Part shown: in pieces, positions 25,076 to 62,287 of the stretch
Layout of the letters: each line of letters opens with the position of its first letter
Position numbering within the stretch: the stretch's first letter is position 1
Assembly (NCBI RefSeq): GCF_013389665.1
Contig: NZ_CP058316.1
Coordinates: forward strand, 2,728,001 to 2,792,000
Direction: 5' to 3'
Length of the DNA: 64,000 nt
DNA from: Microbacterium oleivorans
GTDB lineage: Bacteria; Actinomycetota; Actinomycetes; Actinomycetales; Microbacteriaceae
Program-made: the position numbers and the translations under genes
The notes under the pieces: generated by a model
Databases searched by the model: none
Seen by the model: the letters and a program-made list of their open reading frames with translations, nothing else
Told to the model about the DNA's origin: nothing

Positions 25076-25141
25076 ATGGACGACCCTCCCAGTAGCCGAC
25101 CCTCGCCCCGCCGACACCGCCCCCTCGGGGGTGACCGCTGA
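25076..25141 (+). CDS. Leader peptide overlapping the first CNNM/CorC gene
   Basis: Tiny 21-codon frame starting MDDPPSSRP, Pro/Arg-rich, ending RPLGGDR. Its TGA shares its A with the ATG of the exporter gene (TGATG). TAAGAT at 25060-25065 lies ten bases before the ATG, so the message would begin almost at the leader ORF. The last codons form a hairpin that holds the exporter's Shine-Dalgarno. An Asp/Pro-rich start is typical of leader peptides whose translation aborts at low Mg2+ (as MgtL in Salmonella). Supported only by architecture and by the similar leader at 62207. Confidence 0.6.
   Translation: MDDPPSSRPSPRRHRPLGGDR
25115..25133 (+). promoter_or_regulatory. Hairpin sequestering the Shine-Dalgarno of the CNNM/CorC gene
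   Basis: CCCCC (25120-25124) pairs with GGGGG (25127-25131), extended by CAC/(G)TG after a 2-base bulge. The G-run is the only plausible ribosome-binding site for the ATG at 25141. A ribosome finishing the leader ORF would melt it. Confidence 0.55.
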
Positions 25142-26505
25142 TGGACGTCGTGATGCTGGGCGTGGGGCTGCTCCTGACCATCGGCACCGGTCTGTTCGTC
25201 GCGAGCGAGTTCGCGCTGGTCAATCTCGATCGCGCCGATCTCGAGGCTCGTCAGGCAGCCGGCGAATCCCGTCTGTCGATGACCATCGCGGCGCTGCGGA
25301 TCACGTCGACGCATCTCTCCAGCGCTCAGCTGGGGATCACGCTCACCACGCTGCTGACCGGTTACACGATGGAGCCGGCGATCTCGAATCTCCTCGGCCC
25401 CGTTTTCACGTCGTGGGGGTGGTCCGATGCGGTGTCGCGTCCGATCGCCGCGGTCGTCGGGGTCTCGATCGCCACGATCTTCTCGATGATCCTCGGCGAG
25501 CTCGTTCCCAAGAACTTCGCCCTGGCGATCCCGCGCCAGACGGCGAAACTCGTCATCCCCTTCCAGACGGCCTTCACCGCCGTGTTCCGGCCGGCCGTCA
25601 CGGTGCTCAACGGCAGCGCGAACGGCGTGCTGCGATCGATGGGCGTCGAGCCGAAGGAGGAGCTCTCCGGGGCGCGCTCGGCGGAGGAGCTGTCGAGCCT
25701 GGTGCGCCGCTCGGCCAGCGCGGGCGTGCTCGAGAAGGACACCGCCTCGCTCCTGGACCGTTCCCTCACCTTCTCGCGGCTGACCACCGCCGACGTGATG
25801 ACGCCCCGCCCGAGCCTGCACGCCGTCGCGGCCGGCGACAGCGTCGAGGACGTGATCCAGCTCGCGCGCCGCACCGGTCATAGCCGCTTCCCGGTCTATG
25901 ACGAGTCGATGGACGACATCGCCGGCATCGCGCACGTCAAGCAGGCGGTCAGCGTGCCGCGCGAGCGGCGTGCGGACGTGCCGGCGGCGGCGATCGCGGA
26001 GGAGCCGCTGCGCGTGCCCGAGGCGGTGCACCTCGACGCGGTCCTCGGCGAACTGCGAGCCCGCGGCTATCAGATGGCGATCGTGGTCGACGAGTACGGG
26101 GGGACGGCGGGAGTCGTCACTCTCGAGGACCTCGTGGAGGAGATCGTGGGCGAGGTGCTCGACGAGCACGATCGCAACCGTGCCGGGGTGCTGCGCGTGG
26201 CCGGCGGCATCGTCTTCCCCGCCGAGCTGCGGCCGGACGAGGTGCTCGACCGCACCGGCATCCGCGTTCCCGAGGGTGACGTGTACGACACCGTCGGAGG
26301 CTTCGTGATGAGCGTCGTGGAGCGCATCCCGGTCGTGGGCGACACGGTCGAGATCGAGGACGGCACACTGACGGTGCAGCGCATGGACGGCCGACGCGTC
26401 GACCGGGTGCGCTTCGAGCCGACGCCGATGCCGGACGGCTCCGACTCCGGGGCGGCGGCCGGCCCGGGTGGCCGTGAGCGCGGCCCGGAAGGGACGACCC
26501 GATGA
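25141..26505 (+). CDS. CNNM/CorC family transporter (DUF21-CBS-CorC_HlyC), first of pair
   Basis: Member of the family of the Mg2+ efflux proteins CorC/MpfA (formerly hemolysins). 454 residues: DUF21 membrane domain with about four helices (1-190; start VMLGVGLLLTIGTGLFVASEF), a CBS pair (about 215-340; TADVMTPRPSLHAV, VVDEYGGTAGVVTLEDLVEE) and a C-terminal CorC_HlyC domain (about 350-425). It overlaps the upstream leader ORF by one base and the next gene by four bases, so all three are translationally coupled. Direction of transport is inferred from characterised relatives. Confidence 0.92.
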   Translation: MDVVMLGVGLLLTIGTGLFVASEFALVNLDRADLEARQAAGESRLSMTIAALRITSTHLSSAQLGITLTTLLTGYTMEPAISNLLGPVFTSWGWSDAVSRPIAAVVGVSIATIFSMILGELVPKNFALAIPRQTAKLVIPFQTAFTAVFRPAVTVLNGSANGVLRSMGVEPKEELSGARSAEELSSLVRRSASAGVLEKDTASLLDRSLTFSRLTTADVMTPRPSLHAVAAGDSVEDVIQLARRTGHSRFPVYDESMDDIAGIAHVKQAVSVPRERRADVPAAAIAEEPLRVPEAVHLDAVLGELRARGYQMAIVVDEYGGTAGVVTLEDLVEEIVGEVLDEHDRNRAGVLRVAGGIVFPAELRPDEVLDRTGIRVPEGDVYDTVGGFVMSVVERIPVVGDTVEIEDGTLTVQRMDGRRVDRVRFEPTPMPDGSDSGAAAGPGGRERGPEGTTR

Positions 26506-27554
26506 ACGACTGGGCGGGGCTGGCCTGGCTCGTGGTGCTGCTCGCCTTCAACGCGTTCTTCGTGGCGAGCGAGTTCGCCGTCATCTCCGCGCGCCGCTCG
26601 CAGATCGAGCCGCTCGCCGAGAAGGGATCGCGCGCGGCGAAGACGGCGCTGTGGGCCATGGAGCACGCGACGCTCATGCTGGCGACCTGCCAGCTGGGCA
26701 TCACGATCTGCTCGCTGGTGATCCTCAACGTCTCGGAGCCGGCGATCCACCACCTGCTCGCGGTGCCGCTGGGGCTCACCGGCTGGGGCGAGGCCGTGGT
26801 GGACGTCGTGGCGTTCGTCGTCGCGCTGGTGGTCGTGTCGTACCTGCACGTCGTGTTCGGCGAGATGGTGCCCAAGAACCTCGCGTTCTCGCTGCCCGAT
26901 CGGGCCGTTCTGCTGCTGGCGACACCGCTGCGGTGGGTGTCGCGGGTGTTCTACCCGATCATCGTCGTGCTCAACTGGATCGCCAATCACACCGTCCGGC
27001 TGTTCCGTGTGGAGCCCAAGGACGAGGCGACCTCGACCTACACGCTCGAGGAGGTCGCCACGATCGTCGCGACCTCGCGCATCGAGGGCGTGCTCGACGA
27101 CGCCTCCGGCACGGTCGCGGCGGTCATGGAGTTCACCGACAAGAAGGCGAAGGACGTGGCGGTTCCGCTGACCGACCTCGTCACGCTCCCCGAGTCGGCG
27201 ACACCCGAGGACGTGGAGCGCGCCGTGGCGCGGCACGGGTTCTCGCGCTACGTGATCGTCGACGAGGCCGACCAGCCGGTCGGCTACGTGCACCTCAAGG
27301 ACGTGCTGCGCGAGGCCGAGGGGGACGACGACGCCGCCTCCCGTCCGATCAAGGCGAAGCGGATCCATCTGATGGTCCCTGTCGCCGAGACGACCGACCT
27401 CGAGGACGCGCTCGCCCTGATGCGACGTTCGAGCCGGCATCTCGCCCAGGTGCGCGACGCCGAGGGCCGCACGACGGCGGTGCTCTTCCTCGAGGACATC
27501 ATCGAGGAGCTCATCGGCGAGGTCCACGACGCCACCCGTCGCGTTCCGCGCTGA
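26502..27554 (+). CDS. CNNM/CorC family transporter (DUF21-CBS), second of pair
   Basis: 350-residue partner of the preceding gene with the same DUF21 membrane domain (AFNAFFVASEFAVISARRSQ) and CBS pair (YVIVDEADQPVGYVHLKDVL), but no C-terminal CorC_HlyC domain. The ATGA overlap with the first gene suggests co-translation and probably a heteromeric complex. A similar pair lies at 62284-64000, so the organism has at least two copies of this module. Confidence 0.92.
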   Translation: MNDWAGLAWLVVLLAFNAFFVASEFAVISARRSQIEPLAEKGSRAAKTALWAMEHATLMLATCQLGITICSLVILNVSEPAIHHLLAVPLGLTGWGEAVVDVVAFVVALVVVSYLHVVFGEMVPKNLAFSLPDRAVLLLATPLRWVSRVFYPIIVVLNWIANHTVRLFRVEPKDEATSTYTLEEVATIVATSRIEGVLDDASGTVAAVMEFTDKKAKDVAVPLTDLVTLPESATPEDVERAVARHGFSRYVIVDEADQPVGYVHLKDVLREAEGDDDAASRPIKAKRIHLMVPVAETTDLEDALALMRRSSRHLAQVRDAEGRTTAVLFLEDIIEELIGEVHDATRRVPR

Positions 27555-27598
27555 GCCGCCGCGCCGACCTCGGCGGGCGAGACGGGCGCGGCGCGGGG

Positions 27599-28666
27599 TC
27601 AGTGGCGGCGGGCCCGCACGTACTGCGGCGGCCAGATCGCGGCGTCCTCACCCAACTCGGTGGCAGCGCGGAGTCCGAAGTGCGGGTCGCGCAGCCACTC
27701 GCGGCCGGCCATCACGGCATCCGCGTCTCCGGCGGCGAGGATCTCCTCTGCCTGGGCGCCGGTGGTGATCTCGCCCACCGCGCTCACCGGCACCGCGGCG
27801 CCGCGGCGGACCTCACGCGCGAAGGGCACCTGGTAGCCGGGGCCGGTCGTGATGCTCTGGTGCGCGACGAGCCCGCCGCTGGAGACGTCGACGAGATCCA
27901 CGCCGTGCTCGCGGGCCCATCCCGCCACGACCGTCGTCTCGGCGACGTCCCAGCCGCCGTCGGCCCAGTCGGTCGCCGAGAACCGGACGAACAGCGGCGT
28001 CCCGGGAGCCACCGCCCGCACGGCGTCGATGATCCGCAGCAGCAGGCGAGCGCGGTTCTCGAGCGGACCGCCGTACGCGTCGGTGCGCGTGTTCGACAGC
28101 GGAGAGAGGAACTCGTGCAGCAGGTAGCCGTGCGCCGCGTGGATCTCGAGGACCTCGAACCCCGCTGCCACGGAGCGCTCGGCAGCCGCGGCGAACGCCG
28201 CGACCAGGTCGTCGATCCGGGCGAGGTCGAGCTCGACGGGTCGGTCGTAGCCGTCGAAAGCCAGCGCCGAGGGTGCGAGAGGCTGCCAGCCGCCGCGATC
28301 GCCCGGAACGGTGCCGCGCTCGGTCGCGAACGGCGAGAAGGTCGACGCCTTGCGGCCGGCGTGGGCAAGCTGGATGGCCGCGACGGCGCCGCGGCTGCGG
28401 ATCGATGCGACGATCGGCGCCCAGGCGTCGCGCTGCTCGTCGTTCCAGATCCCGGTGTCTTCGGGGGTGATGCGTCCCTCGGGCACGACGGCGGTGGCCT
28501 CGGCCATCACGAGGCCCGCGCCACCGGAGGCGAACTGCGCGAGGTGCACGTGGTGCCAGTCGCCCGGGAGGCCGTCCTGCGACGAGTACTGGCACATCGG
28601 CGCGACCCACAGCCGGTTGCGCACCTCGACGGTGCGGACGGTCAGGGGGCTGAACAACTGGCTCAC
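27599..28666 (-). CDS. Old yellow enzyme, YqjM/NamA type NADPH:flavin oxidoreductase
   Basis: FMN-dependent ene-reductase that reduces activated double bonds or nitro compounds. 355 residues from GTG at 28666 (AAGGAG seven bases upstream). The thermophilic-like/YqjM signature is clear: WVAPMCQYSSQDG puts Cys25 and Tyr27 next to the flavin, and HAAHGYLLHEFLSPLSN carries the substrate-binding histidines. ASGGAGLVMAEATAV and the C-terminal DAVMAGREWLRDPHF match phosphate binding by the FMN barrel. Divergent from nnrD with a 35-bp gap. Confidence 0.93.
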   Translation of the reverse strand: MSQLFSPLTVRTVEVRNRLWVAPMCQYSSQDGLPGDWHHVHLAQFASGGAGLVMAEATAVVPEGRITPEDTGIWNDEQRDAWAPIVASIRSRGAVAAIQLAHAGRKASTFSPFATERGTVPGDRGGWQPLAPSALAFDGYDRPVELDLARIDDLVAAFAAAAERSVAAGFEVLEIHAAHGYLLHEFLSPLSNTRTDAYGGPLENRARLLLRIIDAVRAVAPGTPLFVRFSATDWADGGWDVAETTVVAGWAREHGVDLVDVSSGGLVAHQSITTGPGYQVPFAREVRRGAAVPVSAVGEITTGAQAEEILAAGDADAVMAGREWLRDPHFGLRAATELGEDAAIWPPQYVRARRH

Positions 28667-28701
28667 GCCGAGCTCCTTCTGGGCGCCGGTAGGGTGACGC
28701 C

Positions 28702-29553
28702 ATGGTCGATATCCACGAATGGGATGCGGGCGAGACGGCTGCGCTCCTGCGGGAGCCAACCGCCGATGACCACAAGTATTCCCGGGGAGTGCTGGGGGTG
28801 CGCACCGGCTCGCACGAGTATCCCGGGGCCGCGGTCCTCGGCGTCGAAGCGGCGTGGCGCACCGGCATCGGCATGGTGCGCTACCTCGGACCCGAGCGAC
28901 CCGCCGACCTCGTGCTCCAGCGCCGCCCCGAGACGGTGACCCGGCCGGGTCGCGTCCAGGCATGGCTGATCGGCTCGGGAACGGATGCCGCCACGCGTCT
29001 GCCCGCGGAGTCGGCGCGGCTGGCGGAGGTCCTGGCTGGTGAGCTGCCCGTGGTCGTCGACGCCGGCGCCCTCGACCTCGTCCCGGGAGCCCGGGCGCCG
29101 ATGGTCGTGACCCCGCATCAGAGTGAGCACGCGCAACTGAGGGACCTCCTGGGCCTCGCCGAGGCTCCACCTGGCGCCTCGCTCGCCGAGCGCGCGTTCG
29201 CAGCCCGCGAGACGGCGCAGGGCAGCGGGGCCGCGGTGCTGCTCAAGGGCGCCGAGACGGTCGTGGCGGCCCCCGACGGCTGGACGACGGTGGTGCGGGC
29301 GGGCACGGGCTGGCTCGCCACCGCCGGTACGGGTGATGTGCTGGGCGGCATCCTGGGTGCGATCGTGGCCGCTCGGGGAGCGCAGCACGAGCTCGATGCG
29401 GCGGCGCTCGCCCGGCTCGCAGCCGCAGCAGCCTTCGTTCACGGGCACGCGGGGCGGAGCGCCGGTCCGGGGCCGGTGACGGCGCTCGACGTCGCCGAGG
29501 CGGTCCCCGCCGTCATCGCGCTTCTTCTCGGTGGAGGCGATCCGGCGCGCTGA
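28702..29553 (+). CDS. nnrD: ADP-dependent NAD(P)H-hydrate dehydratase
   Basis: Repairs hydrated NADH and NADPH by dehydrating the S-epimer with ADP. 283 residues of the ribokinase-like fold (C-terminal half of YjeF), with KYSRGVLGVRTGSHEYPGAA for nucleotide binding and the catalytic TAGTGDVLGGILGA motif. The epimerase half (NnrE) is not fused or adjacent. Start ATG six bases after TAGGGT (28690-28695): leaderless. Confidence 0.92.
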   Translation: MVDIHEWDAGETAALLREPTADDHKYSRGVLGVRTGSHEYPGAAVLGVEAAWRTGIGMVRYLGPERPADLVLQRRPETVTRPGRVQAWLIGSGTDAATRLPAESARLAEVLAGELPVVVDAGALDLVPGARAPMVVTPHQSEHAQLRDLLGLAEAPPGASLAERAFAARETAQGSGAAVLLKGAETVVAAPDGWTTVVRAGTGWLATAGTGDVLGGILGAIVAARGAQHELDAAALARLAAAAAFVHGHAGRSAGPGPVTALDVAEAVPAVIALLLGGGDPAR

Positions 29554-29603
29554 CGCTCGGGAGCGGCCGGGGGCGGTGCGACGCCCGCACGTAGGATGAC
29601 AGC

Positions 29604-30809
29604 GTGACGAGACGGGCAGCGCTGTGGGTCGCTTTCGTGCTCGTTCACCTGCTGGTCTGCGTGCTGGGGTTCGTCATGCCGAACCAGCCGATGGGCGACG
29701 TGTACCTCGTCTACGAACCCTGGTCGCGTGCGGCGCTCGCGGGCGACGGGATCGTCGGGGTGACCGAGGACTGGGTGTACCCGCAGCTCGCACTCGTGCC
29801 GCTCGTGCTCGCCCACGGGTTCGCGTGGATCGCCGGGTACACGGCCGGCTGGGCGGTCTTCGTCACGGCGCTGGATGCGGTGGCGTTCGCGGTGCTCGTG
29901 GGCGATGCGCGCTCCCGAGGCCGCGCGCGGGCCGCATGGTTCTGGCTTGCCGCCATCCTCGCGCTCGGTCCGGTCGGCCTCTACCGCCTCGACGCCGTCA
30001 CCGTGGCCGTCGCGGTGCTCGGGTGCGTGTGGTTGCGCGGGCGGCCCTGGCTCGCCGGCGTGCTGCTGGCCGCGGCGACGTGGATCAAGGTGTGGCCGGC
30101 GGCACTCAGCGCCGCCGCCGCGATCGCCCTGCGTCGACGCTGGGCCCTGATCGGCGCGAGCGCGATCGTCTCGGCCCTGACGCTCCTGGCGATCGTCGTC
30201 GCGGGCGGCGCCGACCACGCCTTCGGTTTCATCGGCGATCAGACCTCGCGCGGGCTCCAGGTCGAAGCCCCGGTCAGCGCGTACTACCTCTGGGGCAGCA
30301 TGCTCGGGGTCCCCGGATTCTCCGTGTACTACTCCACCGAGATCCTGACGTTCCAGGTGACCGGCCGCGATATCGACCCCGTGATCGCCCTCATGACACC
30401 GCTGCTGGCGGCGGGGGTGGGGTCCGTCGCCGTCCTCGCCGCGGTCAAGACCGCGCGCGGGGCGCGCGCGATGCGGCTGCTGCCGGTGACGGCGATGGCG
30501 CTCGTCGTGGTGTTCATCGCGCTCAACAAGGTCGGGTCGCCGCAGTACCTCTGCTGGCTCATCCCACCCGTGGTCCTCGGGCTGCTTTACGACCGTCGGG
30601 AGTGGACGCGCCCGGCGATCGCGGTACTCGTCCTGTGCGCACTCACCCAGATCGTGTACCCCGTGGCGTACGGTGAGGTCCTCGCCGCGCACCCGTTCGG
30701 GGTCGCGGTGCTCACGATCCGCAACGTCCTGCTCGTCGCGCTGGGGGTGTGGATGGTCGTCCGTCTCGCGCGGGTGCCCGTCCGTCCGTCGACGCCCGTC
30801 CCCGCCTGA
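29604..30809 (+). CDS. GT87-type membrane glycosyltransferase
   Basis: Integral membrane protein of 401 residues with about ten helices, resembling the actinobacterial GT87 (DUF2029) family of polyprenyl-phosphate-mannose-dependent mannosyltransferases. Family-like features are the acidic pair after helix 1 (MGDVYLVYEPW), WIKVWPAAL in the middle and KVGSPQYLCWLIPP near the end. Acceptor unknown. Start GTG six bases after TAGGAT (29592-29597): leaderless. Followed closely by a thiamine-binding protein gene. Confidence 0.82.
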   Translation: MTRRAALWVAFVLVHLLVCVLGFVMPNQPMGDVYLVYEPWSRAALAGDGIVGVTEDWVYPQLALVPLVLAHGFAWIAGYTAGWAVFVTALDAVAFAVLVGDARSRGRARAAWFWLAAILALGPVGLYRLDAVTVAVAVLGCVWLRGRPWLAGVLLAAATWIKVWPAALSAAAAIALRRRWALIGASAIVSALTLLAIVVAGGADHAFGFIGDQTSRGLQVEAPVSAYYLWGSMLGVPGFSVYYSTEILTFQVTGRDIDPVIALMTPLLAAGVGSVAVLAAVKTARGARAMRLLPVTAMALVVVFIALNKVGSPQYLCWLIPPVVLGLLYDRREWTRPAIAVLVLCALTQIVYPVAYGEVLAAHPFGVAVLTIRNVLLVALGVWMVVRLARVPVRPSTPVPA

Positions 30810-30822
30810 ACCGGAGGTTCTC

Positions 30823-31164
30823 ATGCTCGTCGCCTTCTCCGTCGCCCCCAGCGGCACCGGCCGCGCCGACGGCTCGGTCCACGATGCCGTCGCCGCGGCG
30901 GTCGCGGTCGTGCGCGCATCGGGTCTGCCGCACCGCACGACGTCGATGTTCACCGAGATCGAGGGGGAGTGGGACGAGGTGATGGCCGTGGTGAAGGACG
31001 CGACCGAAGCGGTGCTGCCCTTCGGCTCACGGGTCTCGCTCGTTCTCAAGGCCGACATCCGTCCCGGCCGAACCGGCGAGATCGACGCGAAGATCGAACG
31101 GCTCGAGACAGCGCTCGAATCGATTCGACACGACGACGGGGGCGGCGCTACGCTCCCTGAGTGA
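30823..31164 (+). CDS. MTH1187-family thiamine-binding protein
   Basis: 113-residue cytoplasmic protein of the DUF77/MTH1187 family, members of which bind thiamine or HMP and are often near thiamine genes. N-terminus MLVAFSVAPSG and FTEIEGEWDEVMAVVKDA match the ferredoxin-like fold. GGAGG lies five bases before the ATG; the stop overlaps the MFS gene (GTGA). No TPP riboswitch is visible upstream. Confidence 0.85.
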   Translation: MLVAFSVAPSGTGRADGSVHDAVAAAVAVVRASGLPHRTTSMFTEIEGEWDEVMAVVKDATEAVLPFGSRVSLVLKADIRPGRTGEIDAKIERLETALESIRHDDGGGATLPE

Positions 31165-32393: not shown

Positions 32394-32396
32394 GGG

Positions 32397-33602: not shown

Positions 33603-33715
33603 GATCGCCATTCTCCCGTCTGTCGGGGCGGCGTGCCCGCGTGTTACGCCCCGGCGTCGGAGAACTGACCCAGGGAGCGCGCCGAGCAGCCGAAAACGTC
33701 ACGTAAGATATCGCG

Positions 33716-33840: not shown

Positions 33841-33844
33841 TTTC

Positions 33845-34876: not shown

Positions 34877-34890
34877 CGTCTCGACCGGCT

Positions 34891-34946: not shown

Positions 34947-34957
34947 GGAGGGACGGA

Positions 34958-53674: not shown

Positions 53675-53855
53675 CCGTTCCCCTTCCGAGGACGGAGGAC
53701 CGGCCTCGCCCCCACTCTATTGAGGGCCCCGAGTCCGAGCCTATGCGGGGACTGGGAATCAGCGGGCAGCGGAATCGCGGCGCGGATACCCGCGGGTGCG
53801 TGCGCCGGCGACTACGCTGACCGGCGGCCGCACGGCCGTGAGGCGGGAGGCTGCA

Positions 53856-54689: not shown

Positions 54690-54743
54690 GGGGAGAGGGC
54701 GCAACGGCTCGGCGCGCTCTCGACGGCTCGATAGCCTGGACCC

Positions 54744-55499
54744 ATGCCCGAGACCGACGAGCCCGACACCGGCGACGAGCCCCGCTACCGCGAGCGCCCC
54801 GTGTCGTTCGCGCGTCGCAGCGGCCGGATGAGCGACGGTCAGGAGCGCGCGTGGAACCAGCTCGGATCCTTCTACGCCGTGCCGGTCGAGCGTGATCAGG
54901 CGGTGTTGAGCGTGCGCCCCGGTGCGCAGGTCGATCCGGCGACTCTGTTCGGGCGGTCGGCCCCGCTCATCGTCGAGATCGGATCGGGGCAGGGCCACGC
55001 GATCGTCGCCGCGGCCGAGACCGCGCCCGCGACGGACTTCCTCGCCGTGGAGGTCTTCCGGGCGGGCCTGGCCCGGACCATGCTCGACGCCGATCGAGCC
55101 GGCGTGCGCAACCTGCGCCTGGTCGAGGCGAACGCGCCCGAGGTGCTGGAGCATCTGCTGCCGCCGGCATCGGTCGACGAGCTCTGGATCTTCTTCTCCG
55201 ACCCGTGGCACAAGAATCGACACACGAAGCGCCGACTCATCTCGCCCGACTTCGCGCCGTTGGCCGCTCGGGTCCTCAAGCCGGGCGGGGCGCTGCGACT
55301 GGCCACCGACTGGCAGGATTACGCGCTGCAGATGCGGGAGGTGATGTCGGATGCCGCGGGCTTCGCTGCCGGATTCGACGGCGCCTGGGCGCCGCGGTTC
55401 GAGGGACGTGTCATGACGGCCTTCGAGCGCAAGGGCATCGCCAAGGGGCGCGACATCCGCGACCTCGTCTACCTCCGCACCGACGACGACCTGCGCTGA
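54744..55499 (+). CDS. trmB: tRNA (guanine-46-N7)-methyltransferase
   Basis: SAM-dependent enzyme that makes m7G46 in the tRNA variable loop. 251 residues with SAM motif IVEIGSGQGHAIV, then FFSDPWHKNRHTKRRL and the C-terminal TAFERKGIAKGRDIRDL that define TrmB. The first 25 residues are acidic and disordered. ATG six bases after TAGCCT (54732-54737): leaderless. The next gene starts four bases after the stop. Confidence 0.95.
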   Translation: MPETDEPDTGDEPRYRERPVSFARRSGRMSDGQERAWNQLGSFYAVPVERDQAVLSVRPGAQVDPATLFGRSAPLIVEIGSGQGHAIVAAAETAPATDFLAVEVFRAGLARTMLDADRAGVRNLRLVEANAPEVLEHLLPPASVDELWIFFSDPWHKNRHTKRRLISPDFAPLAARVLKPGGALRLATDWQDYALQMREVMSDAAGFAAGFDGAWAPRFEGRVMTAFERKGIAKGRDIRDLVYLRTDDDLR

Positions 55500-55503
55500 G
55501 CCG

Positions 55504-56358
55504 ATGAAGACGCACGCAGCCCTCGGGTCACGCCCGTTCATCTCGGTCAGCACCGTCCCGGCGCTTCTGGTGTGCCTGGCCGCGCCCGCGTTCTTCGTCC
55601 TGCTGCAGCCCTGGCTGGGCTGGACGCTGCTCGTCGTGGGGCTCGTCGTCGCGCTCGGTGTCGATCGTTGGCGCGTCAGCGAGACGCGCCCTTCGCTCAC
55701 GCGGGACCTCTCGCTGATCGCGCTCGGCCTGGTCGTAGTCAGCCTGATCGACCTCAAGGCCGAGCTCGACAACCCGGCGATGCTGCGGTTCACGCTCGCC
55801 TTGGGCGGCGCCGTGCTGCTGCCCTACCTCGTGTCGCGGTACCTGTACCGGGATCACGCCATCCGATTCCCCTGGCGGGGAGGCGGCCGCTGGACGCGTT
55901 TCCAGTGGATCTGGCTCGCCGCCGTGCTGGTCCTGGGCTGGCTGATCCTGCCGTTCTACTTCATCACCTCGGGCGTCTACACCAACTGGCCCGTCGTCGA
56001 CACGCCCGAGCTCATCGTGCGGCTCTTCGTGGGTGTCGGGGCGGTGGGCATCTGGGACGAGCTGTTCTTCATCTGCACGTGCTTCGCGCTGCTGCGGCGC
56101 CACTTCGCCGATGCGTCGGCGAATGTGCTGCAGGCCATCGTGTTCGTGTCGTTCCTCTGGGAGCTCGGCTACCAGGCCTGGGGTCCGGCGCTCACGGTTC
56201 CGTTCGCGCTCCTCCAGGGGTGGATCTTCCTCCGCACGAAGTCGCTCGCCTACGTCGTGACGGTGCACCTCCTCTTCGACGCCGTCGTGTTCGGCGTGCT
56301 CGTCCATGCCCACAATCCCGGCCTGCTCGACGCCCTCTTCCTCGTTCCCGCACCCTGA
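55504..56358 (+). CDS. CPBP-like membrane protein with degenerate protease motif
   Basis: 284-residue protein with about seven helices, resembling CPBP/Abi intramembrane proteases. The first motif, normally EExxxR, reads WDELFFICTCFALLRRHF (Asp-Glu, no Arg at the expected place), and the later His motifs are represented by FVSFLWELGYQAWG and VHLLFDAVVFG. It may be a diverged or inactive relative. It lies four bases after trmB, so likely co-transcribed. Confidence 0.7.
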   Translation: MKTHAALGSRPFISVSTVPALLVCLAAPAFFVLLQPWLGWTLLVVGLVVALGVDRWRVSETRPSLTRDLSLIALGLVVVSLIDLKAELDNPAMLRFTLALGGAVLLPYLVSRYLYRDHAIRFPWRGGGRWTRFQWIWLAAVLVLGWLILPFYFITSGVYTNWPVVDTPELIVRLFVGVGAVGIWDELFFICTCFALLRRHFADASANVLQAIVFVSFLWELGYQAWGPALTVPFALLQGWIFLRTKSLAYVVTVHLLFDAVVFGVLVHAHNPGLLDALFLVPAP

Positions 56359-56429
56359 CAGCACGCGGTGCGCAGACGGTGCACAGACGGCCGCGCTAGC
56401 ATCGACCGCGGAGCCCGGGTCATGGGCTC

Positions 56430-56483
56430 GCGGACGAGGGAGCAGTACCCGCACACGACAAGACTGACTCGGACGGGTCTGTC
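56430..56483 (+). promoter_or_regulatory. Guanidine-III (ykkC-III) riboswitch and expression platform
   Basis: GCGGACGAGG (56430-56439), GTACCCGC (56445-56452) and GACAAGAC (56457-56464) reproduce the conserved blocks of the guanidine-III aptamer. P1 GCGG/CCGC and P2 GAGCAG/CTGACTC (one bulged A) both form. GTCTGTC (56477-56483) directly before the ATG can pair with GACAAGAC, so guanidine binding would free the start site. A TAGCAT hexamer at 56397-56402 is the likely promoter. Confidence 0.85.
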
Positions 56484-56798
56484 ATGGCATGGGTGATTCT
56501 GATCGCTTCGGGCGTCCTGGAAGCGGTGTGGGCCTCCGCGCTCGCAGCATCCGAGGGGTTCCGCCGGCGGCGGCCGACGATGGTCTTCGTCGTCGCCCTC
56601 GTGGCGAGCATGGGCGGCCTCGCCCTGGCGATGACCGAGCTGCCCACCGGCACCGCGTACGCCGTGTGGGTGGGCGTGGGTGCGACGCTCACCGTCGTGT
56701 GGGCGATGATCACCCGACGCGAGCGAGCCTCGACCGCGCGCATCCTGCTGCTTCTGCTGCTCGTGGCCTCGGTCATCGGGCTGAAGGTGGTCAGCTGA
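56484..56798 (+). CDS. SMR guanidinium exporter subunit (Gdx-type), first of pair
   Basis: 104-residue small multidrug resistance protein with four helices. The essential Glu13 is in SGVLEAVWASALA, followed by ASEGFRRRRP, similar to the SEGF motif of SugE/Gdx proteins. GTAYAVWVGVGATLTVVW is the conserved third-helix region. Its leader contains a guanidine-III riboswitch, so export of guanidinium is the likely role. TGATG coupling to the second subunit. Confidence 0.92.
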   Translation: MAWVILIASGVLEAVWASALAASEGFRRRRPTMVFVVALVASMGGLALAMTELPTGTAYAVWVGVGATLTVVWAMITRRERASTARILLLLLLVASVIGLKVVS

Positions 56799-57214
56799 TG
56801 GCCTGGTTCGTCCTTCTGCTCAGCGCCGTGTGCGAGGCGGTCTGGGCCACCGCCCTCGGCCACTCGCAGGGGCTCACCGAGCCGGCAGCGACCGTCGTGT
56901 TCGTCGTCGGGGTGACTCTCAGCATGGTCGGACTCGGCTGGGCGATGAAGCAGATCCCCATCGGGACCGCCTACGCCGTATGGGTGGGTGTCGGCGCCGC
57001 GCTCACGGTTGCCTGGTCGATCCTGTCGGGGGCCGAGCCCTTCTCGATCGGCAAAGTGGTGTTCATCGCGGGCATCGTCGCCGCCGTGATCGGACTCAAG
57101 CTGGTCCCCGCTGCGGCGGCGATCAGCCCAGACGCGACAGCAGGGCCGGTCCGAATGCCGCGATCGCCGCGATCGGCACGACGAGCGCGGCCGCTGCGAC
57201 GATCCCGACAATGA
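56798..57214 (+). CDS. SMR guanidinium exporter subunit, second of pair, with extended tail
   Basis: 138-residue SMR protein with Glu13 in SAVCEAVWATALG and GTAYAVWVGVGAALTVAW. It overlaps the first subunit by one base, as in paired SMR transporters that form antiparallel heterodimers. The family normally ends near residue 105 (VIGLKLVP); here about 34 further residues rich in Arg, Pro and Ser follow, because the frame runs on through an opposite-strand gene. Confidence 0.88.
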   Translation: MAWFVLLLSAVCEAVWATALGHSQGLTEPAATVVFVVGVTLSMVGLGWAMKQIPIGTAYAVWVGVGAALTVAWSILSGAEPFSIGKVVFIAGIVAAVIGLKLVPAAAAISPDATAGPVRMPRSPRSARRARPLRRSRQ

Positions 57215-57305
57215 CGATGTTGCCCAGGATCGCCGCGACGAGAGCGCGGCCGCGGTCAGAAGCGGATCGGATGCGGTCGGCGGCAGAGAGCGGTGCTGTG
57301 GTCAC
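57123..57305 (-). CDS. Small single-helix membrane protein overlapping the SMR tail
   Basis: 60-residue protein with a polar N-terminus (APLSAADRIRSASDRG) and one long hydrophobic segment (about 24-50; NIVIVGIVAAAALVVPIAA). Start GTG lies exactly six bases after TACCGT (complement of 57312-57317), the same leaderless pattern as many genes here, which supports it as a real gene. Its last 92 bases lie antisense to the unusual tail of the second SMR gene. Function unknown. Confidence 0.6.
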   Translation of the reverse strand: MTTAPLSAADRIRSASDRGRALVAAILGNIVIVGIVAAAALVVPIAAIAAFGPALLSRLG

Positions 57306-57469
57306 ATATCGACGGTACGAAGCGGCAGGGCGTCACCGCGTCGGTCGAGCGGCTGAACGGCATCCTCCTCGGGGATGATCTCGCGCTGGGGGACTGTCAA
57401 TGCCCTTCGCGGCGCCGCCGCGGCGGACGTAGCCTCTGGGGTCACCGCGAGAAGACGAAGGAGCGCACC

Positions 57470-57673
57470 ATGACCGACCCGCACACCCGCCCCGGGGCCG
57501 AGCCGGGCGACGCCGGCGACGGCGTCGAGACCGGAACCACGACGGGCGGAGCCTCCGCGTTCCCGGGATCGCCGAGCGCGGCGCCCGACGAGCCGGCCCC
57601 CGACGAAACAGACGGTTCCGACACGACGACGGACGCGGACGGCGATCCGCTCGAGAACCCGTCGGGAGGCTGA
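57470..57673 (+). CDS. Small acidic disordered protein
   Basis: 67 residues, almost entirely Gly, Asp, Glu, Thr, Ser and Pro (for example PDEPAPDETDGSDTT), without hydrophobic core. AAGGAG lies six bases before the ATG. It resembles the 71-residue protein at 61489 in composition only. Function unknown; the next gene is a stress-type PNPOx-like protein. Confidence 0.7.
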   Translation: MTDPHTRPGAEPGDAGDGVETGTTTGGASAFPGSPSAAPDEPAPDETDGSDTTTDADGDPLENPSGG

Positions 57674-57766
57674 GCGCCCCCTGTCAAGCAGGAGCGCCGC
57701 CGGCCCGGGCGATGTCAGTGTAAGGACACGGCGCCCACGCCCGGATGCCGCGATGAAGGAGGAGCC

Positions 57767-58249
57767 ATGAGCGACACGGAAGATCCCCGCACGACCCTCG
57801 CCGAGCTGTTGCCGGACTTCCGGTTCGCGATGGTGACGACCGCCGACGCCGACGGCAAGCTCACGGCCCGCCCGCTCACCGTGCAGGAGGCGGAGTTCGA
57901 CGGCGACCTCTGGTTCGTCGTGGATCGTGAGTCGTCGGTGGCCGCCCACGTGGGCGAGCGACCGGGCGTCGGGGTCGCACTGAGCACGAACGACGCCTGG
58001 GTGTCGCTGGCCGGGGAGGCCCGGATCGTGGACGACCGCGCCCGGCTCGGCCACTACTGGTCGAGCACCCTGGAGGCCTGGTTCCCCGACGGGCCCGACG
58101 ATCCCCGCGTCACGCTGCTGCGGATCGATGCCGTCTCGGGGGAGTACTGGAGCAGCGCCGGCGGACGCGTCGCGACGGCGATCGGCCTGATCAAATCGAA
58201 GATCACGGGCGAGACCTACGAGGGTCGCAACGAGAAGCTCGATCTCTGA
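57767..58249 (+). CDS. Pyridoxamine-phosphate-oxidase-like (general stress protein 26) family
   Basis: 160-residue flavin-binding split-barrel protein similar to GSP26 of Bacillus: FRFAMVTTADADGKLTARPL, LWFVVDRESSVAAHV and EYWSSAGGRVATAIGLIKSK. AAGGAGG precedes the ATG. Ends before a strong bidirectional terminator. Confidence 0.88.
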   Translation: MSDTEDPRTTLAELLPDFRFAMVTTADADGKLTARPLTVQEAEFDGDLWFVVDRESSVAAHVGERPGVGVALSTNDAWVSLAGEARIVDDRARLGHYWSSTLEAWFPDGPDDPRVTLLRIDAVSGEYWSSAGGRVATAIGLIKSKITGETYEGRNEKLDL

Positions 58250-58268
58250 ACGAGACGATCGCCCGGTC

Positions 58269-58317
58269 ATCGAACGAAGGGCCGTCCCGCGTGGAGCGGG
58301 ACGGCCCTTCGTTCGAT
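58269..58317. terminator. Bidirectional terminator between GSP26-like gene and hydrolase
   Basis: Perfect 22-bp inverted repeat (arms 58269-58290 and 58296-58317, 5-base loop) between convergent genes. Confidence 0.87.
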
Positions 58318-58324
58318 CAGCGCG

Positions 58325-59161
58325 TCACTTCGCGAGGAAGGCGAGCAGCGCCTCGTTGAACCGCCCCGCGTGGCTGACATTCAGACCGTGCGGTGCGTCG
58401 TCGATCAGGACGAGCTCGCTTCCCGCGAGCTGCTCGTGCGTGCGCTTCCCCGAGCCCTCGAAGGGGACGGTGCCGTCGCCCGAACCGTGGATGACCAGGG
58501 CGGGCACGGTGACGGCCTCGAGGTCACGGCGGAAGTCGGTGGTGCCGAAGGCCTCCATCGACTTGAGCGCAGCGTGGTGGTCGGCCTGTCGTGTCAGCGC
58601 GATCGCCTGCTGACGCTGCTCCTCGGTGACCTTGAGATCGCCGTCGACCGAGAAGAACTGGGTCGTGAACCCGTCGTAGAACGTCGCCTCGTCCTCCTTG
58701 AGGCCGTTCTCCATCTCGTCGGCCTGCTCCTGCGTCAGCGGGCCCTCCGGGTTGTCGGGGGTCTGGGCGAGATAGGGAGGCACCGCCGCGGCGAAGACGA
58801 CGCTGCGCAGCCGGTCCTGGCCGTGATTGGCGATGTAACGGGCGACCTCGCCGCCGCCCATCGAGAATCCGACGAGCGTCACGTCCCGCAGATCCAGGGT
58901 CTCGAGCACCGCGGCGAGATCGGAGGCGAAGGTGTTGTAGTCGTAGCCCGAGCGCGGCTTGTCGCTCCGGCCGAAGCCGCGGCGGTCGTAGGCGACCACA
59001 CGGTATCCGGCGGCGGCGAGAGCCGGGATCTGCTCGGACCATGATTCGGCCGACAGCGGCCAGCCGTGGATGAGCACGACCGGACGGCCGCTGCCGCCGG
59101 TGTCGTCGACGTGCAGCTCGACGTCGTTGAAGAGGCCTTTGTGTGCGGTGATCTCAGTCAT
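58325..59161 (-). CDS. Alpha/beta hydrolase, non-heme chloroperoxidase-like
   Basis: 278-residue alpha/beta hydrolase of the cofactor-free haloperoxidase/esterase group: LIHGWPLSAESW oxyanion loop, RRGFGRSDKPRSGYDY, nucleophile VGFSMGGGEVARY, Asp in VIHGSGDGTVPF and His in DAPHGLNVSHA. The ATG at 59161 gives the usual N-terminus. Physiological substrate unknown. Confidence 0.9.
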   Translation of the reverse strand: MTEITAHKGLFNDVELHVDDTGGSGRPVVLIHGWPLSAESWSEQIPALAAAGYRVVAYDRRGFGRSDKPRSGYDYNTFASDLAAVLETLDLRDVTLVGFSMGGGEVARYIANHGQDRLRSVVFAAAVPPYLAQTPDNPEGPLTQEQADEMENGLKEDEATFYDGFTTQFFSVDGDLKVTEEQRQQAIALTRQADHHAALKSMEAFGTTDFRRDLEAVTVPALVIHGSGDGTVPFEGSGKRTHEQLAGSELVLIDDAPHGLNVSHAGRFNEALLAFLAK

Positions 59162-59277
59162 GAGGTCATCATCGCCAGACGCCCCACCGTACTCGAACAG
59201 TTGACGAAATACGTCCGGCGGTCTAGAACGCGGGCAGACTGTCGATGTGCGCCGTCGAACACCCCCGGGAACTCGTC

Positions 59278-60078
59278 GTGCCCGAAGGTGACAGCGTCTA
59301 CCGGCTGGCCGACCGCCTTCGGCGGCAGGTCGCGCACCGGCGCATCGTCGCCGGAGAGCTCCGGTCAGGAACGGCGGCGGGGACATCGCTGGCAGGTCTG
59401 GCGATCGGCGGCTTCGACACGCACGGCAAGCACCTGGTCACCACACTGGACCCGGGATGGGCGTTGCACACGCACCTGCTCATGCAGGGGTCGTGGTCGG
59501 TCACCCGGGCAGGACGGTCGGTGCCGGCGCGGCTGAGGTCGGCGGTGCGCGTGCGAGCGTCGCTCGATGACGGGAGCACCCTCTGGGGAATCGACATGCC
59601 CGTGGTCGAGATGCTCCGCGCGTCCTCGGTGCGAGCCGCTCTCGCGCACCTGGGTCCGGACCCGCTGCGACCCGATTGGGATGCCGCCGAGGCGGCCCGG
59701 AGGCTGCGGTCGGCTGCGGATCGCCCCCTCGTCGCCGCCTTGCTCGACCAGCGGATCATCGCGGGACTCGGAAACCTGTGGGTCAACGAGCTCGCGTTCC
59801 TCTCCGGGGCGCATCCGTTCGCTCCGGCCGGTGCCGTCGACGCGGATGCGCTCGTGGATCGGGCGGCTCGTGCGCTTCGACTCTCGGCGACCGTCGCCGG
59901 GATGTATCAGGTGACGACGGGGGACCGGCGACCGGGCCGGTCCCACTGGGTCGCGGGTCGTGCCGGCAAGCCGTGTCTTCGCTGCGGGACGATGATCCGC
60001 GTGCGGGCCGAGGTCGCCGACGATCCGCAGCGGCGCCGGACCTGGTGGTGCCCGTTCTGTCAGCCTTCCGGCTCGTGA
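59278..60078 (+). CDS. nei: Endonuclease VIII (Nei) DNA glycosylase
   Basis: Bifunctional glycosylase/AP lyase for oxidised pyrimidines, Fpg/Nei family. I set the start at GTG 59278 because the mature enzyme must expose Pro2-Glu3 (sequence MPEGDSVYRLADRL), the catalytic N-terminus; the upstream in-frame ATG would bury it. Also seen: HGKHL catalytic lysine region, LLDQRIIAGLGNLWVNELAF and a C-terminal zinc finger CLRCGTMIR...WWCPFC. 266 residues. Confidence 0.92.
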   Translation: MPEGDSVYRLADRLRRQVAHRRIVAGELRSGTAAGTSLAGLAIGGFDTHGKHLVTTLDPGWALHTHLLMQGSWSVTRAGRSVPARLRSAVRVRASLDDGSTLWGIDMPVVEMLRASSVRAALAHLGPDPLRPDWDAAEAARRLRSAADRPLVAALLDQRIIAGLGNLWVNELAFLSGAHPFAPAGAVDADALVDRAARALRLSATVAGMYQVTTGDRRPGRSHWVAGRAGKPCLRCGTMIRVRAEVADDPQRRRTWWCPFCQPSGS

Positions 60079-60105
60079 TGGCGCGGAAGAGCGGAGGAAC
60101 GTCCG

Positions 60106-60594
60106 TCAGCGCCGGAGTGCAGACGCCGGCTCGACCGAGTCGACGGCATCCTGCATCCGGGAGAGGAAGTCGATGACGGCTTCCGTCGCCTCGGCCGACG
60201 TGTCGGCCGCCACCTGGTGCATGCGATCGTGCATGGCAGAGAGCGTGGATCTGACCTCGTCGTCCGCACGCTCGGTGGGCTCGAGATAGACGCTGCGCCG
60301 ATCGCTCGGGTGCGGGACTCGGCGTAGATAACCGGAGCTCTCCAGTCTGTCGAGCAGACTCGTCGTGCTGGCGGTCGAGATCCCGAGGTACTTCGCAACG
60401 TCTCCGGGTTTGACCTGCAAGCCGCGCGACTGCGCGCGCAGCAACTGCCGGATGACCAGGAGCTCGTTCTCGCCCATCGACATCGACTCGCGCGTACGAC
60501 GGCGCATCGCCGCTTCCGCCGCCTGGTAGAGGCGCAGGGCCTCCAGGGCGCTGGTCGCGCGCTGGCGGTCGTTGTCGTAGAAGAAACCGGTCAT
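60106..60594 (-). CDS. MarR family transcriptional regulator
   Basis: 162-residue winged-helix repressor: MGENELLVIRQLLRAQ, recognition region KPGDVAKYLGISTASTTSLLDRLESSGYLRR and wing PHPSDRRSVYLEPTE. GGAGG lies eight bases before the ATG. Divergent from the DUF7882-type gene; the shared AT-rich spacer contains a TTATCAGATAA palindrome that could be its operator. Ligand unknown. Confidence 0.9.
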   Translation of the reverse strand: MTGFFYDNDRQRATSALEALRLYQAAEAAMRRRTRESMSMGENELLVIRQLLRAQSRGLQVKPGDVAKYLGISTASTTSLLDRLESSGYLRRVPHPSDRRSVYLEPTERADDEVRSTLSAMHDRMHQVAADTSAEATEAVIDFLSRMQDAVDSVEPASALRR

Positions 60595-60629
60595 GTGTGC
60601 ACCTCCGCACTTGTGCTCGTAGGTATAAC

Positions 60630-60640
60630 TTATCAGATAA
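60630..60640. promoter_or_regulatory. Candidate MarR operator palindrome
   Basis: TTATC-A-GATAA is a perfect 5+1+5 palindrome in the divergent spacer, close to the probable marR -10 (complement, TAAGTT) and upstream of a TTGACG -35 (60645-60650) for the rightward gene. Confidence 0.5.
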
Positions 60641-60711
60641 CTAACTTGACGAGATACTTTCACAACTAGTAGCGTTAGCGACAAGTCATCCAGCATCTGT
60701 GAGGAGCCACC

Positions 60712-61098
60712 ATGGGCCAGCTGTTCTACGGGAACGCTTCCGAGTCGATTGAGATCCCTGACCGCCTGCTCGCCCACCTGAAGGTGTTGGCGGCGACGAA
60801 GCTGCGACGTTCCGAGAGCTTCACGCTCACGTGGAAGCACGTCGACGGTTCTGCATCGGGGCGCTCGACCATCTGGCTGCAGCCGTCGATCCCCCTCCGG
60901 TTCGTCTTCGACTCGGCCGAGCCCGAGAAGCTCGACTCGAACCTGCTGACCGAGATGGCCAAGTCGGCGACATCGTCGGCGGGATTGGTGGTCGATCTGG
61001 CCGAGTACGCCCCGGCGGCTGCGCCGGCGGCCGGACCGGCCTCCCTCGAGGCCTCCGCCGCACCCGCCCTCGCGGGAGAACTGGCGACCGCAGCATGA
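60712..61098 (+). CDS. DUF7882-type small protein of Microbacteriaceae
   Basis: 128-residue protein opening MGQLFYGNASESIEI with a core RSESFTLTWKHV...GRSTIWLQPSIPLRFVF. I recognise it as the DUF7882 family typical of Microbacteriaceae; the ATP-dependent DNA ligase label seen in databases has no motif support. The C-terminal 30 residues are Ala/Pro-rich. GAGGAG lies six bases before the ATG. The next gene overlaps it. Confidence 0.8.
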   Translation: MGQLFYGNASESIEIPDRLLAHLKVLAATKLRRSESFTLTWKHVDGSASGRSTIWLQPSIPLRFVFDSAEPEKLDSNLLTEMAKSATSSAGLVVDLAEYAPAAAPAAGPASLEASAAPALAGELATAA

Positions 61099-61445
61099 CC
61101 AGCCTCCTCGCCGAGCCGGCGGCCCCGCGCGTCCTGAGCGCGCGTCGCATCACCTGGTCGACCGTGGCGCCCGGCTTCTACGTCGCCTCCACCGACGGCG
61201 AGTTCGTCGGATCGATCGACGTGTCGTCGGACGGCCATTACATCGCCCTCGACGGCCACGCCACACCGATCGGCCGGTACGCGACGCTGAAAGAGGCGCA
61301 GCACTCGCTCCTCACCACGGATGCTCCGGGAAACCGCGCCCGCAAGCGCATGGTCCGTCGCAACATCCGTGCCGCCGCCACGGCCTCCGGTGCCGTCGCG
61401 GGTGCGCTCGCGCTCACGGCCGGCGCCCTCGCACCGTTCATCTGA
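61095..61445 (+). CDS. Small protein with C-terminal membrane helix
   Basis: 116 residues: a soluble N-terminal part (WSTVAPGFYVASTDGEFVGSIDV, then HYIALDGHATPIGRYATLKEAQ) resembling a small beta domain, a basic linker NRARKRMVRRNIR and one Ala/Gly-rich hydrophobic helix at the end (about 95-116). ATGA overlap with the DUF7882-type gene indicates co-translation. Function unknown. Confidence 0.72.
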   Translation: MTSLLAEPAAPRVLSARRITWSTVAPGFYVASTDGEFVGSIDVSSDGHYIALDGHATPIGRYATLKEAQHSLLTTDAPGNRARKRMVRRNIRAAATASGAVAGALALTAGALAPFI

Positions 61446-61488
61446 CCTCGGCCCGAAGCGGCCGCCACCCAGAGAGAAGAGGAAAACG

Positions 61489-61704
61489 ATGACCTCGAAC
61501 GAGACGCACCGCGATACCGACGAGAACGCCTACGAGGGTCCGGACATCGAAGTCCCCACCGGCGAGCACGACAGCGAGGGGACTCCCGAGCCGGGCGGTC
61601 TCGGCGGTGACGGCACCATTCCCTCGAACCCCGACGGTGTGGCCGCCGGTCACACCGGGACGGCATCCACCTTCGAGCCCGAAGAGGACGAGCAGTCCTC
61701 CTGA
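61489..61704 (+). CDS. Small acidic disordered protein
   Basis: 71 residues of low complexity, Glu/Asp/Gly/Thr-rich (EVPTGEHDSEGTPEPGG; ends EPEEDEQSS), with an AGAGGA ribosome-binding site. Third gene of a probable operon from 60712. Composition recalls the product at 57470. Function unknown. Confidence 0.68.
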   Translation: MTSNETHRDTDENAYEGPDIEVPTGEHDSEGTPEPGGLGGDGTIPSNPDGVAAGHTGTASTFEPEEDEQSS

Positions 61705-61775
61705 GGCCCGTACCGGAGGGTCGGAGGCGGCGCGGTCCCCAACCCTCGCACCAGCGGTCCTCACGACCGTCGCAT

Positions 61776-61823
61776 CACAGCGAAGCGCCCGAGACATCCT
61801 CCCGTCTCGGGCGCTTCGCTGTG
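61776..61823. terminator. Bidirectional terminator
   Basis: Perfect 20-bp inverted repeat (arms 61776-61795 and 61804-61823, 8-base loop) between convergent genes. Confidence 0.85.
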
Positions 61824-61831
61824 CGGGCGGG

Positions 61832-62041
61832 TCAGGCGCCGAGCTTCTTCGATGCCTTGCGCGCAGCGGAGTCGACGACTTTGCGGGCACGCTTGCGCGC
61901 CTTGCGCAACGAGGGATCATCCCAGAGGTGCTTCGCAGCGTGGCTGATGTCGCGGTATCGGGCCCGCCCGGCCTTCGCTCCGGCGATGTAGGCGGCGACC
62001 CCCACGACGAGGATCAGCAGGCAGGCTTTGGGCTTCGGCAT
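61832..62041 (-). CDS. Small basic membrane-anchored protein
   Basis: 69 residues: one N-terminal helix (ACLLILVVGVAAYIAGAKAG) and a strongly basic helical tail (LRKARKRARKVVDSAARKASKK). I chose the ATG at 62041 since GGAG lies six bases upstream; the ATG at 62053 has none. The tail might bind nucleic acid or acidic lipids. Related small proteins (YtxH-like) are common in actinobacteria. Confidence 0.7.
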   Translation of the reverse strand: MPKPKACLLILVVGVAAYIAGAKAGRARYRDISHAAKHLWDDPSLRKARKRARKVVDSAARKASKKLGA

Positions 62042-62206
62042 CCCGTACTCCATTCGGTCGATGTGTCGCCCACGCTACGGATGCCGCGGAGTCGCGTCAT
62101 CGGCTTGACAGAGGCCGATGTCGCACGGTCCGTGCGGGCGGTCGCCCGGGGGGACTTGCGGCTATCCTGTAGACGCCCACCCGTGCCCTATCGAGAAAGA
62201 ACACCC

Positions 62207-62287
62207 GTGAGCCGTCGCCGTGCCTCCACCGACCAGGAGGGTCGATCTTCGTACCCCCTCACTGAGAGAGGGGGTGACACCGAATGA
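62207..62287 (+). CDS. Leader peptide overlapping the second CNNM/CorC gene
   Basis: 26-codon frame from GTG with GAGAAAG eight bases upstream; begins MSRRRASTDQEG and ends YPLTERGGDTE. Its TGA overlaps the exporter ATG (ATGA). An in-frame GTG at 62183 would give 34 residues starting MPYRERTP; TATCCT at 62163-62168 is the likely -10. The ending PL(TER)GGD resembles RPLGGDR of the leader at 25076, and in both the codons CCC CTC ... GGG GGT form the hairpin that holds the exporter's Shine-Dalgarno. Confidence 0.6.
   Translation: MSRRRASTDQEGRSSYPLTERGGDTE
62254..62274 (+). promoter_or_regulatory. Hairpin sequestering the Shine-Dalgarno of the CNNM/CorC gene
   Basis: CCCCCTC (62254-62260) pairs perfectly with GAGGGGG (62268-62274), loop of seven. 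The GAGGGGG arm is the ribosome-binding site for the ATG at 62284. Confidence 0.6.

Follow-up and report, generated by a model that had tools for sequence, protein, structure and literature searches.

A conserved MDDPP leader overlapping CNNM/CorC-family exporter genes in the Microbacteriaceae, a candidate Mg2+-responsive gate of translation

Introduction

MgtL, the leader of mgtA in Escherichia coli and Salmonella, is a short open reading frame (ORF) with an acidic, proline-containing start (EPDP) in front of a Mg2+ transport gene, and acidic residues among the first 30 of a chain, side by side or one apart, are reported to cause pausing or drop-off of the ribosome (PMC11282234), an intrinsic ribosome destabilization (IRD) that is eased by Mg2+ (PMC9718836). 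In a window of 64,000 nucleotides (the whole stretch of DNA analysed, from contig NZ_CP058316.1) within a 3.35-Mb Microbacterium-type genome, two operons, each with two genes of the CNNM family, begin with short upstream ORFs (uORFs) that overlap the first gene, P0003 in operon 1 and P0005 in operon 2. Leader 1 combines early acids with proline as MgtL does (MDDPP), and leader 2 carries D-(Q/P)-E. As judged from sequence comparison, the finding of this work is that leader 1, with its MDDPP start, is strongly conserved and specific to CNNM genes, and that it overlaps the exporter gene. For the likeness to MgtL, Mg2+ transport by the gene that follows is taken from the family name; export of Mg2+ would be expected from the family names and from published work on relatives (PMC12421838), and solved relatives carry the name CorC, 'Magnesium and cobalt efflux protein'.

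MgtL differs in governing Rho-dependent transcription termination of an importer gene, for which drop-off means ON, whereas the gene after leader 1 looks like an exporter and overlaps its leader, so that drop-off should mean OFF. The mgtQ uORF before mgtB of Salmonella likewise has Asp/Glu codons, with the Shine-Dalgarno (SD) sequence of the transporter gene held in a stem-loop (PMC8092293), but there destabilization raises mgtB translation via alternative stems, and no such release is predicted for the leaders described here. Two CorC-domain proteins with roles in Mg2+ stress are also related cases: the authors suggest that E. coli CorC (YbeX) rises at high Mg2+ because its N-terminus itself carries an IRD sequence, and that MgpA translation falls when YoaL, the leader of mgpA (yoaE), loses its start (PMC12421838). 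In that case IRD and the overlapping leader belong to two separate genes, whereas here a single overlapping leader carries the acidic motif, and in another phylum. Arrest-peptide uORFs of the RAPP/RGPP type, regulatory nascent chains that also contain prolines, have been reported in Actinomycetota (PMC12992588); their motif, R[AG]PP, was present in 0 of 178 leaders.

Results

The elements of leader 1 lie as follows.

25076..25141, plus strand: leader 1, MDDPPSSRPSPRRHRPLGGDR and a stop codon, the uORF before P0003
25079..25090, plus strand: Asp-Asp-Pro-Pro codons, the conserved core of leader 1
25139..25143, plus strand: TGATG, in which the leader 1 stop overlaps the exporter start (25141)
25060..25065, plus strand: −10-like TAAGAT, 10 nt before the leader 1 ATG, consistent with a near-leaderless mRNA
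25141..26505, plus strand: CNNM/CorC-family exporter P0003, first gene of operon 1 (Pfam CNNM, CBS, CorC_HlyC)

Relatives of P0003 were found in 78 of 79 genomes of the genus and 148 of 150 of the family, as well as at 80 named loci, and the DNA upstream of them was compared. The best-scoring 30 loci were taken from the 78 matching genus genomes, the family set holds 80 of the 148 matching genomes, limited to two from any one genus and spanning roughly 64 genera when counted by hand, and the order/class set comprises 40 loci; the 110 genus-type loci include duplicates and reduce to 93 distinct sequences over 210 nt and 84 over 63 nt. A uORF with the MDDPP start was present in all 110 genus-type loci, before a CNNM/CorC gene adjoining a GuaB-like gene, and a leader beginning MD[DE]P in 68 of the 80 loci drawn from the rest of the family. 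Since that pattern fixes residues only through the fourth, with Asp or Glu at codon 3 (Asp in 65, Glu in 3) and codon 5 free, the later codons are informative: codon 5 encodes Pro in 67/68 by four different codons (CCT 32, CCC 17, CCG 17, CCA 1), and codon 6 encodes Ser in 50/68 (TCT 37, TCA 9, AGT 4). Residues kept while their codons vary point to selection on the peptide, and we hold with high confidence that selection would be acting on MDDPP itself. Further along, 98/110 genus and 28/68 family leaders carry a second motif, [HC][RKS]P, compared with shuffle means of 11.1 and 4.1. CATAGACCC (His-Arg-Pro, with Arg encoded by the rare codon AGA) is common to many family leaders (e.g., L138, L143, and L156), and the middle codon of [HC][RKS]P is AGA in 17 of the 28 family leaders that have the motif. 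A conserved start together with a second motif would also suit a working small protein whose overlap with the exporter is incidental; this is very improbable, given that the family leaders range from 11 to 53 residues (median 25) with a little conserved middle, and that one of them is fused to the exporter.

The leader ends on the exporter start with great regularity. Among the genus leaders the stop stands at +1 of the exporter start, in the manner of TGATG, in 105/110 (the exceptions being L015, L054, L112, L113, and L114), and 67/68 family leaders end within −9 to +25 of that start, the remaining one being the fusion. In 46/68 of the family the stop is at +5, by way of a TGA formed by exporter codons 2-3, a feature present in only 1/38 order/class loci (L217-L254). 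At the other end, a TANNNT element finishes 7-14 nt before the leader ATG in 177/178 loci, and exactly 10 nt before it in 136. By the usual spacing from promoter to start, a −10 element about 10 nt before the ATG implies a nearly leaderless message, whose transcription would begin a few bases 5' of the leader ATG. Both features, and the variable length and middle of the peptide, are what plain translational coupling would give, with a leader that senses nothing and only delivers ribosomes to a poorly accessible SD, its conserved start serving leaderless initiation. We consider this unlikely, though not markedly so: it does not account for residues retained while codons 5 and 6 vary, nor for the identical start that the fusion retains and that also precedes second CNNM paralogues (L269-L272 and L276).

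The association with CNNM genes is close to exclusive. Searched across 150 family genomes, the pattern TANNNT-N10-ATGGAYGAYCCNCC gave 62 matches in 59 genomes, and its reversed control gave 0. All 62 stand before a CNNM gene, 60 by hand comparison with the CNNM matches (in four cases the gene is a second CNNM paralogue) and two, on other contigs of G100 and G132, by running into a CNNM start (L273 and L274). In 394 genomes of the class the pattern had 11 matches, ten of them before CNNM genes (including L279, L283, L284, and L286), while the eleventh, L287, is by eye the start of a TetR-like protein; for the class genomes outside the family this amounts to 2/373, one before CNNM and one the TetR-like start. 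An overlapping uORF of the leaderless type occurs in 21/40 order/class loci, and under a looser pattern MD[DE]P was found in 3/40 (L215, L216, and L235). MDDPP leaders (MDDPPSH...) also stand before second, more distant CNNM paralogues (L269, L270, L271, L272, and L276), which suggests that the leader has followed gene duplication. One locus labelled Planococcus sp. APC 4015 (L092) has an 81% identical CNNM gene with an MDDPP leader and is probably a mislabelled or mixed assembly. The initial annotation knew of no described example. No description of an MDDPP/CNNM leader was found in the literature searched, which mostly did not cover subscription papers; the same sign of control, however, was proposed in a 2025 discussion for IRD in the N-terminus of E. 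coli CorC (PMC12421838).

What the conserved start does may depend on its prolines or on its acids. DPP is a strong motif for dependence on elongation factor P (EF-P), and Asp-Pro-Pro could slow the ribosome early without drop-off, the signal being EF-P activity or charged prolyl-tRNA, with Mg2+ acting indirectly through the same coupling. Prolines occupy residues 4-5 in 110/110 genus and 67/68 family leaders, more follow in the [HC][RKS]P motif at frequencies above the shuffles, and the mgtP leader of Salmonella is described as responsive to charged tRNA-Pro (PMC8092293). We nevertheless judge pausing of this kind unlikely, because conservation of the two acids equals that of the prolines (D/E at residue 3 in 68/68, although the pattern required it) and operon 2 keeps D-Q-E (17) or D-P-E (1) in its 18 leaders without a PP pair.

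A natural fusion bears on the sign of control. In one genome (G119) the sequence after the promoter, ATG GAC GAC CCT CCG TCT, continues in frame into the exporter (L211, L267), giving a protein of 475 aa, P0006, that begins MDDPPSAELLL; another genome of the same genus has a separate 12-residue leader (L268). With MDDPPS as the exporter's own N-terminus, ribosome drop-off can only mean less exporter, which sets the sign. The arrangement resembles that of YbeX, with its own N-terminal motif. In protein databases, P0006 was the only MDDPP-starting protein among 120 listed of 2222.

Leader 2 begins and ends differently, as the following elements indicate.

62207..62287, plus strand: leader 2, VSRRRASTDQEGRSSYPLTERGGDTE and a stop codon, GTG start, ending ATGA on the CNNM start at 62284; common to 18/29 homologue loci
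62231..62239, plus strand: Asp-Gln-Glu codons of leader 2 (DQE in 17/18, DPE in 1/18)
62284..63702, plus strand: CNNM/CorC-family exporter P0005, first gene of operon 2 (Pfam CNNM, CBS, CorC_HlyC), in ATGA overlap with leader 2
62270..62278, plus strand: SD of operon 2, GGGGGTGAC, in the 3' arm of the hairpin
62252..62276, plus strand: hairpin over the SD of operon 2, nine pairs with a loop of seven

Relatives of P0005 occur in 17/79 genus and 13/150 family genomes, and of the 29 loci compared, 11, from more distant relatives with proteins 53-64% identical, gave no such leader. Where found, leader 2 ends 1-19 nt past the exporter start in 18/18 loci. It is not leaderless, its GTG lying well 3' of the likely promoter. 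Its hairpin exceeds expectation: the local fold has a z-score of −3.04, with 0/200 shuffles as stable, and in the 18 relatives the mean z is −2.29, with at most 5% of shuffles as stable in 13/18; a longer fold of 121 nt is ordinary (z −0.52, 56/200 shuffles as stable). An arm swap between species was not significant for operon 2 (642/5000). Leader 2 would act as leader 1 does, through D-(Q/P)-E and a real SD hairpin, but this is less certain.

Leaders were also folded with a ribosome, represented by a 28-nt footprint, placed on each codon in turn, a procedure in which SD opening under the footprint arises partly by construction. In operon 1 (n = 82) the unpaired fraction of the SD averaged 5%, both for the free leader and with a ribosome at codon 4; in operon 2 (n = 18) it was 2% for the free leader, 4% at codon 10, and on average 22% for whichever of codons 1-13 was best. 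By this prediction the SD was freed only where the footprint itself covers it, so that an early pause or loss of the ribosome keeps it shut, and its plausible user is the ribosome that finishes the leader. Native leaders left the SD slightly less open than shuffled ones in the genus (0.12 vs 0.17, lower in 59/87) and in the family (0.17 vs 0.22, lower in 44/65), with relatedness uncorrected in both comparisons. We regard it as very likely that leader and exporter translation are coupled. The initial annotation had proposed that a ribosome finishing the leader opens the SD and reinitiates at the exporter. The stop-start overlap and an SD predicted to be closed in the ribosome's absence agree with this; a hairpin acting independently of reinitiation is not supported, the SD being freed only under the ribosome. 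The strength of SD pairing averages −14.7 kcal/mol in the genus, with 0/110 weaker than −5, and −8.7 kcal/mol in the family, with 9/68 weaker than −5; reinitiation may thus matter more in the family.

The same folding addresses the opposite sign, in which early loss or pausing of the ribosome lets the leader refold and frees the exporter SD, as with mgtQ, the uORF of a Mg2+ transporter with acidic codons whose destabilization raises downstream translation (PMC8092293). In operon 2 the ACCTCC and GGAGGG segments could pair alternatively. This reading is improbable, since no early ribosome position frees the SD in either operon and since it is incompatible with the fusion. Within leader 2 (window 62225-62260), the ACCTCC/GGAGGG and CCCCCTC/GAGGGGG segments resemble a four-arm attenuator; folding with the ribosome placed on the leader predicted no SD release from them.

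A third CNNM gene of this genome (L002) has an overlapping uORF of 31 residues (L002 1370-1465), and its group in the genus (L288-L312) has an overlapping uORF in 24/25 loci; acids adjacent or one apart occur in 15/25, this genome's own copy not among them. Among these relatives HSPSARVTPG is conserved, as is an inverted repeat, GCCCGGGTGACCCCGGGC, that lies within the leader.

The remaining genes of the two operons and their surroundings are given below.

23557..25014, plus strand: GuaB-like gene (IMP dehydrogenase/GMP reductase domain; Pfam PF00478, 328.9 bits), 5' of operon 1
26502..27554, plus strand: second CNNM gene of operon 1, P0004 (Pfam CNNM, CBS), in ATGA overlap
63699..64000, plus strand: second CNNM gene of operon 2, in ATGA overlap, extending beyond the window; homology match G000:C1:2791723-2792700

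A scan of the window against Rfam at gathering scores returned a guanidine-III riboswitch as its sole match and no family, such as the M-box, at the leaders. The riboswitch (RF01763, 48.8 bits, window 56408-56473) lies just 5' of an ORF with MAWVILIASGVLEAVWASALAASEG, which by eye encodes a small multidrug-resistance/guanidinium exporter; such an arrangement is ordinary and known.

Discussion

On the analogy with MgtL, leader 1 would be a translated cis-acting gate. Transcription would begin a few bases 5' of its ATG and Met-Asp-Asp-Pro-Pro would be made first; at low Mg2+ this acidic, proline-containing start would destabilize the ribosome and cause drop-off, the strong SD of the exporter would stay base-paired to the C-rich mRNA of the leader, and exporter synthesis would be low. 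With ample Mg2+ the ribosome would continue, open the SD, terminate on the exporter start and reinitiate, so that a Mg2+ exporter would be produced under Mg2+ excess. The leader would work like an IRD-type Mg2+ leader with the sign of its output reversed, and an EttA-family gene (886.6 bits) was found and counted in favor of this reading. That a gate of the MgtL/IRD type, acting through the nascent chain, turns the exporter ON is a tentative proposal for which our confidence falls a little short of even; Mg2+-dependent ribosome drop-off at MDDPP may be the trigger, and there too our doubts slightly exceed our belief. A reversed MgtL logic had been put forward in the initial annotation, which placed the leaders, overlaps and SD hairpins of both operons correctly, including the codons CCC CTC and GGG GGT of operon 1, and made no use of the most conserved features, the MDDPP of leader 1 and the D-Q-E of leader 2. 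Its logic is partly supported: it agrees with the MgtL-like start of leader 1 and with a fusion that allows only less exporter on drop-off, but the decisive role that it gave to the operon-1 hairpin is not supported.

That hairpin is the first of several points that weigh against an IRD-type gate. Its parts are the following.

25127..25135, plus strand: SD of operon 1, GGGGGTGAC, in the 3' arm of the hairpin
25118..25133, plus strand: hairpin predicted to cover the operon-1 SD, six pairs with loop CUCG, of a stability at the level of composition

The local fold of operon 1 has a z of 0.36 (131/200 shuffles as stable) and the 113-nt fold a z of 0.15, and when the 5' arm of this genome is shuffled, 73% of the shuffled versions fold equally well. 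Tests of folds and arm swaps in operon 1 covered 82 of the 84 distinct sequences (L055 and L112, in which no SD was found, were left out); in these the hairpin has a mean z of −0.18, with 4/82 at or below 5%, and in the wider family a mean z of 0.04, with 5/80 at or below 5%. Of 84 distinct operon-1 relatives, 82 allow a helix of at least five pairs covering the SD, by a script that picks the best helix, and this capacity is explained by composition, because C-rich proline codons precede a G-rich SD. Arm swaps were weak in operon 1, 210/2000 permutations being as good by duplex energy, and four hairpin settings gave 116 to 270 of 5000, with a control segment leaning in the opposite direction (4911/5000). 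The A of GGAGG faces a U in 9/9, again with the best helix chosen by the script; the 11 GGAGG species showed no consistent loss of stability with the arms of other species, only some having lost it. The operon-1 helices slide in register between species, so the comparison assumed no fixed structure, and covariation was rejected as proof of the hairpin. By these fold predictions, the hairpin that had been credited with masking the SD is real in operon 2, whereas that of operon 1 is unremarkable and cannot be the core of the mechanism there.

Other observations also tell against the gate. Leaders beginning MD[DE]P are absent from 12/80 family genomes, and in at least three of these (L186, L201, and L210) the promoter is apparently right at the CNNM gene. 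Leaders from outside the family show no enrichment of early acids (6/21 vs 2/11, p 0.68, with a tiny background that includes the window's own leader). MDDPP has only two acids, fewer than most of the IRD sequences tested. The fusion comes from a single genome (1/80 loci), by its record name a metagenome-assembled one, and a sequencing error behind it is possible. Codon usage may additionally point to a constraint on the RNA: the leaders use CCT for 216/757 Pro and AGA for 99/441 Arg, compared with 3/85 and 0/131 in four window genes, a comparison across different genomes that can serve only as a hint.

At its widest, the proposal would be that the Microbacteriaceae possess a dedicated Mg2+ sensor based on leaderless initiation, in which a ribosome on the 5'-end MDDPP gauges cytosolic Mg2+ by its own stability and sets Mg2+ export, a separately evolved mirror image of MgtL, with variants before three groups of CNNM paralogues (MDDPP; D-Q/P-E; and D-S-D/D-P-D with HSPSARVTPG) and once fused to the exporter; at present we regard this as rather doubtful, though conceivable. 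Even without a role for Mg2+, the leader is a strongly conserved, CNNM-specific uORF of which the literature searched gave no description. If the reversed gate is true, dozens of leaders with only the first five residues fixed, together with one natural fusion, would form a natural library for IRD research, and a second phylum would be shown to gauge Mg2+ through ribosome instability, in this case with the opposite sign, as suits an exporter. It would also provide a directly testable claim on how actinobacteria control Mg2+ export.

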